Of a stretch of 64,000 nt of DNA, positions 18,963-29,486 are shown in pieces. Where the stretch lies: the NCBI RefSeq assembly GCF_025790165.1, contig NZ_CP094970.1:1674001-1738000 (forward strand), written 5' to 3'. Position 1 is the first letter of the stretch. The number at the start of each line of letters is the position of its first letter. The position numbers and the translations under genes are program-made. The notes beneath the pieces were generated by a model, which searched no databases, was not told where the DNA came from, and was given only the letters and a program-made list of their open reading frames with translations. The DNA is from Solicola gregarius (GTDB lineage Bacteria > Actinomycetota > Actinomycetes > Propionibacteriales > Nocardioidaceae).

Positions 18963-19595
18963 ATGGACTTCCAGGACGTTGTCGCCCGTCGGCGGATGAT
19001 TCGCAACTTTCAGGACGGCCCGGTCGAGCCCGCGACGGTCGACCGGATGCTGCACAACGCGGTACGCGCACCGAACGCGGGCTTCAGCCAGGGGTGGGCA
19101 TTCCTGGTACTCGACGATCGGGACGACGTCGCGCGCTTCTGGGAGGCCACGTCACCCGACCCGGACGCGGACAGCTCGTGGCTCGCCGGGATGCGCCGCG
19201 CACCCGTGATCATCGTCCCGCTCGCGAACAAGGACGCCTACCTCGATCGGTACGCCCAACCCGACAAGGGCTGGACCGACCGCGACGAGGCACGCTGGCC
19301 AGCCCCGTACTGGGACATCGACACCGGCATGGCGGCGTTGCTGATCCTGCAGACGGCCGTCGACGAGGGGCTCGGCGCCTGCCTCTTCGGGATCCCACCG
19401 GACCGGATCGACGCCTTCCGGACCGCGTTCGAGGTCCCCCCGGCGTACCGCCCGATCGGCGCGATCGCCGTCGGGCACCCCGCCGAGGGCGGCGCCTCCG
19501 GCTCACCGACCCGGCGCGCACGGCGGCCGCTCGACGAGGTCGTCCACCACGCCCGCTTCCAGCCCACCACCCCGCCCGAGCCAACAGAACCGTGA
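18963..19595 (+). CDS. Nitroreductase-family protein
   Basis: A 210-residue FMN-dependent nitroreductase/oxidoreductase. The N-terminal RRMIRNFQDGPVEP and APNAGFSQGWAFLV segments bind the FMN phosphate, and IDTGMAALLILQTAVDEGLGA is the family's central helix. The substrate is unknown. The ATG at 18963 lies 17 bp after the hut operator, so it may be controlled with the hut genes. Its last codons and stop coincide with a fragment of the repeat found twice downstream. Confidence 0.88.
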   Translation: MDFQDVVARRRMIRNFQDGPVEPATVDRMLHNAVRAPNAGFSQGWAFLVLDDRDDVARFWEATSPDPDADSSWLAGMRRAPVIIVPLANKDAYLDRYAQPDKGWTDRDEARWPAPYWDIDTGMAALLILQTAVDEGLGACLFGIPPDRIDAFRTAFEVPPAYRPIGAIAVGHPAEGGASGSPTRRARRPLDEVVHHARFQPTTPPEPTEP

Positions 19596-19650
19596 CAGCA
19601 CCAGGCGCGCGGCTCAGCAAACGATCCGGGGTGGAGGTGGGGTGTAGGCC

Positions 19651-19698
19651 ACGGATCCCCGGCGAAACGTCAAGCGAACGCAGTGAGCCGGGGTCCGT
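19651..19698. repeat. Hairpin with conserved 23-nt loop, copy 1
   Basis: Arms 19651-19663 and 19687-19698 pair over about 12 bp around the loop at 19664-19686 (GAAACGTCAAGCGAACGCAG plus TGA). The same loop, 21 of 23 bases identical, caps an unrelated, longer stem at 19979-20063. Located 3' of the nitroreductase gene. Confidence 0.6.
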
Positions 19699-19706
19699 GC
19701 CCGACA

Positions 19707-19799
19707 CCCCAGCATCGAACAGAACCGTGACCAGCAACACCACCCGGCAGTAGCAACCCGCGCCGCCCGGCGCACACGTCCGCCAGGCGCGCCCGTACG
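19707..19799. repeat. 93-bp direct repeat, copy A
   Basis: About 87 of 93 bases are identical to 19849-19941 (offset 142). It begins CCCCAGCATCGAACAG and ends GCGCCCGTACG. A shorter degenerate piece (AACAGAACCGTGA...) lies at 19584-19607, over the nitroreductase stop codon. No frame in it resembles a known protein. Confidence 0.75.
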
Positions 19800-19848
19800 C
19801 GTTCGGCTGAGCGATCGTCAGACTCGCTGAGGATCGGGCACGCCGACC

Positions 19849-19941
19849 CCCCAGCATCGAACAGAGCCGTGACCAGCAACAGCACCAGGCAGTAGCAACC
19901 TGCGCCGCCCGGCGCACGCGTCCGCCGGGCGCGCCCGTACG
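19849..19941. repeat. 93-bp direct repeat, copy B
   Basis: Second copy of the unit at 19707-19799. The two copies and the flanking hairpins fill the 495 bp between the convergent nitroreductase and Nudix genes; I see no gene in this stretch. Confidence 0.75.
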
Positions 19942-19978
19942 AATGTGCGGCCGTCATGCGTCGGCGTAGCGCCGTTCA

Positions 19979-20063
19979 CGTCAGGTGGGTTCGGCTCGCG
20001 GGGCACGGCGAAACCTAAAGCGAACGCAGTGAGCCGGGCCCCGCGAGCCGAACCCAACTGACG
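19979..20063. repeat. Hairpin with conserved 23-nt loop, copy 2
   Basis: Arms 19979-20009 and 20033-20063 are complementary over 31 bp with two mismatches. The 23-nt loop at 20010-20032 (GAAACCTAAAGCGAACGCAG plus TGA) matches that of the hairpin at 19651-19698. It starts 28 bp after the Nudix stop on the minus strand and may act as its terminator. Confidence 0.7.
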
Positions 20064-20090
20064 CCCAAAGGAGCCGAAGGCGACGGCGAG

Positions 20091-20651
20091 TCAGCCGAGC
20101 AAGCCCACGGAAGCGAGCGCCTGGCGGAGGAGTGCACCGCGGCCACCCTCCATCTCGGAGAGGACCTCCTCCTTCGCGATGTCGCGTGGAGGCATCCAGT
20201 CGAGCGCGAGCGCGTCCTGGCGCGGTGTGCAGTCGCCGCTGACGGGCACGACGTACGCGAGTGCGACGGCGTGCTGACGCTCGTCGGAGAAGGTGGACTC
20301 GCCGGGCCACGGGAAGTACTCGGCGACGGCGAACGGCACGACGCTCACGGGCACCTGCGGCAGAGCGGTTGGCCCGAGATCCTTCTCCAGGTGGCGGCGC
20401 AGTGCGTCGCGTACGGTCTCGCCGTGGAGCACGCGGCCCGACACGAGCGTGCGTGTCATCTCGCCGCTCATCGACGCGCGCAGCAGCGTACCGACCTCGC
20501 GGACGGCTCCGTCGGCATCGACGCGGACCGGCACGGCTTCGACGTACAGGATGGGCACGCGGGCCCGGGTCTCGGCCAACTCACCCTCGGTGAGCCAGCC
20601 GCCGGCCGGCTCGGACGGGTTGTTCGGATCGGGCGTACGCACGGAACTCAT
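20091..20651 (-). CDS. Nudix-like protein (DUF4916 type)
   Basis: A 186-residue cytosolic protein. GRVLHGETVRDALRRHLEKDLG (near 90-111) has the spacing of a Nudix box, though its glutamates are only partly conserved, so hydrolase activity is uncertain. The flanking strands (TLLRASMSGEM, DERQHAVALAYVVPVSG) fit the fold. The ATG at 20651 gives MSSVRTPDPNNPSEP. It is divergent from the cold-shock gene and convergent with the nitroreductase across the repeat block. Confidence 0.75.
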   Translation of the reverse strand: MSSVRTPDPNNPSEPAGGWLTEGELAETRARVPILYVEAVPVRVDADGAVREVGTLLRASMSGEMTRTLVSGRVLHGETVRDALRRHLEKDLGPTALPQVPVSVVPFAVAEYFPWPGESTFSDERQHAVALAYVVPVSGDCTPRQDALALDWMPPRDIAKEEVLSEMEGGRGALLRQALASVGLLG

Positions 20652-20739
20652 GGGCTCGATTGTCCAGTATCGAACCAACGCTCGCCGACCCGCGCGACGC
20701 GTGGTCACGCAGGTGGCCCCACGCATGTTAGGTTGGGCC

Positions 20740-21200: not shown

Positions 21201-21253
21201 CATGCTTACGTGGTAAGCATGCACTGTGCACGGCGAATTCACCATGCACAGTG
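21201..21253. repeat. Two stacked inverted repeats between cspA and hutU
   Basis: CATGCTTAC-GTG-GTAAGCATG (21201-21221) is followed by CACTGTGCA (21222-21230) pairing with TGCACAGTG (21245-21253). They lie in the convergent gap 3' of both cspA and hutU, so a terminator for the hut transcript is most likely. Confidence 0.5.
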
Positions 21254-21286
21254 GACGCTTGCCGTGCAAGGTACGCACGGCGCGAG

Positions 21287-29362: not shown

Positions 29363-29389
29363 TCTCATCCGCCCCGGGCACGCCCCCAC

Positions 29390-29452
29390 CCGTGAGCCGG
29401 ACGTTTGAGTGCGACACGCCGGCGTGTCTCCGCTCGAACGTCCGGCTCACGG
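29390..29452 (+). terminator. Long nested hairpin after the M36 protease
   Basis: CCGTGAGCCGGACGTT (29390-29405) pairs perfectly with 29437-29452 and the stem continues with few mismatches; the top holds ACACGCCGGCGTGT (29414-29427). Its right half (29411-29455) is the second copy of the repeat at 3371-3415. It starts 28 bp after the M36 stop. Confidence 0.65.
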
Positions 29453-29486
29453 TGGGTTGCGCTTAGGGTCGGGTCGGAGGTACGCG

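Follow-up and report, generated by a model that had tools for sequence, protein, structure and literature searches.

Hairpins H1 to H4 form a real, small and apparently undescribed set of gene-end hairpins in which the loop is conserved. Two of them lie in the window, a 64,000-nucleotide stretch of the Solicola gregarius genome (G000, 4.9 Mb), another lies elsewhere in the same genome, and the fourth belongs to one other species of the genus (G001), which served as the comparison. Across the four, pairing of the stem is kept, the stem letters have changed, and the loop is kept. Each hairpin stands at the 3′ ends of convergent genes. The set is tentatively explained as U-less bidirectional terminators or 3′-end protectors, a reading that we hold at a little under an even chance, in which the loop would be constrained by recognition while the stems drift by compensation.

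Two hairpins between convergent genes

The two hairpins that the preliminary description placed at 19651-20063 of the window are both present at about those positions. As it had also noted, they lie between convergent genes: a nitroreductase family gene on the plus strand (18963..19595, Pfam PF00881, E 4.7e-24, start codon assumed), which ends at 19595, and a DUF4916/NUDIX gene on the minus strand (20091..20726, Pfam PF16262, E 8.1e-78), which ends at 20091. H1 begins 42 nt past the nitroreductase stop codon, and 27 nt separate H2 from the stop codon of the DUF4916/NUDIX gene.

H1 is larger than first described, as its inner stem (13 bp and a single bulged T) runs outward to 19638-19711 on the plus strand. 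The RNA fold contains 23 pairs with small bulges (19638-19645/19704-19711, 19647-19648/19701-19702, 19650-19655/19694-19699, and 19657-19663/19687-19693), and a covariance model, for which H1 is among the source sequences, matches it at G000:C1:1693651-1693698 (E 2.9e-9). H2 (19979..20063, plus strand) is recovered as an inverted repeat, by RNA fold, and by the covariance model. Its arms, 19979-20009 and 20033-20063, are 31 nt each and 94% complementary. The folding energies are −50.4 kcal/mol for the H1 stretch and −71.8 kcal/mol for the H2 stretch, with z scores of −5.0 and −7.0 against dinucleotide shuffles.

The loops, located on the plus strand by sequence and pattern searches, are GAAACGTCAAGCGAACGCAGTGA in H1 (19664..19686) and GAAACCTAAAGCGAACGCAGTGA in H2 (20010..20032). 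They are identical at 21 of 23 positions, so the shared 23-nt loop stands as first described. The accompanying statement that the stems are unrelated is slightly overstated: the outer stems differ, while inner pairs are common to H1 and H2, and likewise to H3 and H4. For H1 and H2, the likeness takes the form of a 38-nt direct repeat (89%) that includes the loop and reaches 4 nt into the left arm and 11 nt into the right.

The block also holds the duplication that had been given as 93 bp. Two direct copies do exist, although their length is 99 bp and they are 93% identical. Direct-repeat comparison places copy 1 at 19701..19799 and copy 2 at 19843..19941, both on the plus strand; copy 1 starts within the outer part of the right arm of H1. 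The 14-nt motif AACAGAACCGTGAC, found inside the 99-bp repeat, occurs a third time at 19583..19596 (plus strand), where it covers the nitroreductase stop codon. Since the motif recurs across the stop codon, the block has the appearance of a duplication that arose locally, around the nitroreductase 3′ end.

A second site in two species

A pattern search of 294 genomes of the family, allowing up to 3 mismatches, returned one further loop, H3, in G001 (3837504-3837586; 30-nt arms, 93% complementary, loop GTAACCTCAAGCGAACGCAGTGA). A relaxed pattern returned a weaker match in G000 that also folds, H4 (1189861-1189943, minus strand), with a stem of 28 perfect base pairs followed by an A·G mismatch, a C-G pair, and the loop GAAACGTAAAGCGTCAGCAGTGA. 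Further copies with compensatory stems had been predicted, and pattern and covariance-model searches thus supplied two. The covariance model of H1 to H4, applied to G000 and G001, gave exactly four matches at E 3.5e-11 to 2.9e-9, which are the members themselves, with the next at E 4. All four pattern matches in strong hairpins in these two genomes carry the loop. A candidate at G001:C1:456202-456224, intergenic between two minus-strand genes, equals the H2 loop over 18 nt and was rejected as a further member, having no enclosing stem.

H3 and H4 share one orthologous gap, between a convergent membrane-protein gene and an isochorismatase-like gene (both named by eye from translations), in two species that are 81.6% identical over collinear DNA. 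H4 starts 13 nt past the stop codon of its upstream gene; H3 lies 23 nt past the corresponding stop and 2 nt from the opposite one. At this shared position the stems differ and the loops run in opposite orientations, an inversion that recombination or template switching between palindrome arms would produce.

Following H4 is a second, imperfect 99-bp tandem pair (stretch L035:1154-1351). No similarity is evident between its unit and the 99-bp unit of the window, and the H3 site of G001 has no such pair. The 99-bp duplication is therefore probably a neighbour of the hairpins and not a member of the family.

Loop conservation and stem covariation

The loop consensus of the four hairpins is C[GWAACNNNAAGCGNNNGCAGTGA]G. 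Identity over its 23 positions is 21 for H1/H2, H1/H3, and H2/H3, 19 for H4/H1 and H4/H2, and 17 for H3/H4. For comparison of the stems, the four sequences were aligned without gaps over 12 pairs and the loop, with the one bulged T of H1 removed. Ten of the 12 innermost pairs contain double-sided changes, the covariation expected of a structured RNA, here in only four sequences. Paired cells amount to 95.8%, a share that is 68% after shuffling and no higher than 54% with a slid register. The covariation score is 0.97, versus 0.42 shuffled and at most 0.29 slid, although the slid control is generous to a structure that was derived from the sequences under test. The suggestion of a conserved loop on a covarying stem is therefore supported, both by the existence of H3 and H4 and by inner-pair covariation above the two controls. 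Homology over whole arms was considered and set aside, the best values against shuffles being P ~0.03 (H1/H4) and ~0.1 (H2/H3) before correction for six comparisons.

Hairpin stability was likewise rejected as the cause of loop conservation. Under the nearest-neighbour model, shuffled loops on the same stems fold equally well or better, so stability in that model does not explain why the loop is kept. By these energies, the functional readings that remain for the loop would be recognition or a tertiary fold, and the neutral one would be common descent.

Common descent is rather unlikely in our judgement. It would have ancestral hairpins duplicated locally, after which quasi-palindrome correction (template switching) would maintain perfect arms with no need of selection, and the loop would be conserved only through its position outside them. 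The perfect or near-perfect arms are consistent with this, as are the imperfect duplications adjoining both G000 loci, and the inverted loop of H4 is an expected product of inverted-arm recombination. The inner stems also point to shared ancestry, with similarities of 8/12 (H1/H2) and 9/12 (H3/H4), a level that no more than one of 110 other hairpin arms attains. However, the remainder of the convergent gap does not align between the species, and a loop free of constraint should have diverged likewise, yet 17-21 of its 23 positions remain.

Distribution of the loop

Beyond the genus, the covariance model found nothing convincing in the 294 family genomes, where weak matches at E 0.04-0.7 are expected by chance at that many genomes. 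The proposed covariance-model check thus yielded two more copies within the genus and no convincing ones in the family. The exact pattern CGNAACNNNAAGCGNNNGCAGTGAG (C-loop-G) has 6 matches in 84,980 named genomes (near-genome records possibly omitted), all stemless and at chance level. Set against four of four strong-hairpin matches in the genus, these argue that the presence of the loop in hairpins is not due to chance. As far as can be seen, the loop set is restricted to the genus. No relatives of the hairpins were found in phages or plasmids, and no mention of the loop sequence, including GAGCGAACGNAGTGAGCGAG, was found in the literature searched.

A conserved loop with a covarying stem is the usual sign of a structured RNA, and H1 to H4 could be independent small RNAs or riboregulators that engage a target through the loop, by pairing or binding. 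This seems very improbable, although parts of the loop do recur elsewhere. No promoter-like site was detected in 19400-20300 with a sigma-70-type consensus, and placement is always between convergent gene ends. No Rfam family matches at gathering score, and sub-threshold matches are nearly all of generic miRNA type; at E ≤ 10 the hairpins themselves match only generic hairpins of microRNA type and, weakly and in part, sX9. The phage-associated long hairpin RNAs “skipping-rope” and “Drum” combine a long, variable stem with nucleotides that are conserved near its tip. H1 to H4 differ from these in giving no such Rfam match at E ≤ 10 and in being chromosomal, at convergent sites, in one actinobacterial genus.

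The recurring part is the 3′ half of the loop, GCGAACGNAGTGAGC, which appears in other hairpins and in viral contigs and is treated here as a lead. Hairpins with a ~17-bp stem and a loop containing AGCGAACGAAGTGAGC occur in two genomes from a different genus of the family (weak model matches). In G441, a genome of another actinobacterial family, the 15-mer GCGAACGCAGTGAGC has 12 copies, and the eight distinct contexts that were read all fall inside one dispersed hairpin repeat with the conserved stem CTGTCAAGGG...CCCTTGACAG. The 20-mer GAGCGAACGNAGTGAGCGAG occurs in 53 IMG/VR viral-contig stretches, versus ~0.2 expected when scaled from a 16-base reversed control with 15 occurrences.

It is conceivable, though a long shot, that the loop contains a general, undescribed cap, GC-GAACGNAGTGA-GC, which tops stems of any sequence in actinobacteria and in many viruses and has a conserved partner that reads it, with H1 to H4 as an elaborated version. 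The GCGAACGCAGUGAGC / GAGCGAACGNAGTGAGCGAG cap can be drawn as tandem sheared G·A pairs, A-U, C-G, and a GNA triloop. A stem of at least 5 pairs encloses GAGCGAACGNAGTGAGCGAG in 4 of 28 distinct viral contexts (permuted mean 0.6), and actinobacterial instances of the recurring part show no stem excess under the same scoring; for these reasons the general cap stays a lead.

As separate observations, GAGCGAACGNAGTGAGCGAG in viral contigs often lies outside long open frames (e.g., L135:9597-9616 and L282:2063-2082), and some viral copies, together with a related 16-mer at L176:1301-1316, crown stems of different sequence.

Other palindromes of the genus

Strong hairpins were surveyed in 800 kb of each species, with crude gene calls. 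The majority fall into families in which the stem is conserved, such as GCCGAGGTACGG, TGAGCCGCACGTTT, TTTACCATG, TGACGAGAGA, and GAGTTCGGTGCGAATTGCAC, from which H1 to H4 are distinct in having a conserved loop and divergent stems. Several orthologous gaps hold different palindrome families in G000 and G001, which indicates that palindromes turn over.

This richness in dispersed, exchangeable palindromes lends some credit to a different reading, unlikely but deserving consideration, in which H1 to H4 are a non-autonomous mobile palindrome (REP- or MITE-like) inserted at gene 3′ ends, with the loop read by a transposase or recombinase. G001 keeps the nitroreductase/DUF4916 gene order, and the gap that spans 495 bp in G000 is 36 bp there, without the whole block or any hairpin of the H1/H2 kind, which favours this reading. 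Similarly, the H3 loop is closer to those of H1 and H2 (21/23) than to that of its positional counterpart H4 (17/23).

Against mobility, there are only four copies, target-site duplications were not seen, and neither the nitroreductase/DUF4916 block nor the H3/H4-site block (“locus B”) is multicopy, the latter being found nowhere else. The Y1 (RAYT-type) transposase domain PF01797 is absent from both G000 and G001, with positive controls, and Pfam identified no nuclease or transposase among the eight neighbouring proteins submitted, so the suggested linked enzyme did not materialize and the mobile repeat raised at the outset gains little positive support. REP/REPIN elements with a RAYT (Y1) resemble H1 to H4 as repeated extragenic palindromes, and the genus has several palindrome families with the conserved stem typical of REPs. 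In REPs the stem is normally the conserved part, accompanied by a GTAG/CGTC foot and many copies; in H1 to H4 the loop is conserved and the stem variable, and no foot is shared, a CGTC start being present only in H2.

Two other kinds of palindrome were also noted. Hairpins with the palindromic core GCGACACGCCGGCGTGTC and partly different complementary stems, found at 29381-29461 of the window and at 1260687, 1402892, and 1497083 of G000, are possibly a second loop-conserved set. A repeat of nested palindromes, in which TTTACCATG...CATGGTAAA encloses a centre resembling GGCGAATTC, has six copies in the 800 kb surveyed of G000 (1070361, 1192684, 1288311, 1402068, 1503005, and 1664800) and was not found in the matching G001 stretch; window positions 21205-21270 look similar to it.

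A possible role at gene ends

The gap between convergent genes near stop codons is the normal position of a 3′-end hairpin. At both loci a GC-rich hairpin lies downstream of the stop codon, 2-42 nt away. A scan found no consensus terminator and no U-tract after the hairpins, the plus-strand stems being followed by GCATCG and CCCAAAGG. The early view that these are not plain terminators holds insofar as they lack a U-tract and their loop greatly exceeds the usual length, but all copies are near stop codons between convergent genes.

Under the preferred explanation of terminators or 3′-end protectors, each hairpin would act between its convergent genes, most likely as RNA and on transcripts arriving from either side, by terminating them without a U-tract or by shielding the 3′ ends of both converging mRNAs from exonucleases. 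We infer here that the hairpins are transcribed, that they terminate or protect, and that the loop has a binding partner. The stem would only have to pair, and its letters could drift by compensatory change. Template switching from one arm to the other may assist this drift and would at the same time account for the loop inversion in H4. Conservation of the 23-nt loop sequence would reflect either recognition by some partner or a particular tertiary fold that the loop adopts.

Parallels for parts of this explanation are known. In Streptomyces clavuligerus, many structured 3′ ends lack a U-tract and bidirectional ends also occur (PMC8269248), and Bacillus cereus terminators show compensatory stem switches (PMC5381666). 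The U-lacking “I-shaped” bidirectional 3′-end hairpins of high-GC actinobacteria are like H1 to H4 in their position at stop codons, convergent genes, GC-rich stem, missing U-tract, and compensatory pairing. In contrast, H1 to H4 have a 23-nt conserved loop common to separate loci, whereas terminator loops are short, with an optimum of 4-8 nt (PMC8269248). A loop so far above this optimum counts against a gene-end role, as does its opposite direction at the orthologous H3/H4 site. The loop also occupies only two genome loci, which means that a loop-binding partner would serve very few sites.

Hairpins at gene ends are usually treated as interchangeable, as structures in which pairing counts and the loop does not. 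If stems turn over between sister species at one site while a long loop stays fixed, then some bacterial 3′-end hairpins would carry a recognized loop. With two loci in two species, the idea of loop recognition is directly testable.
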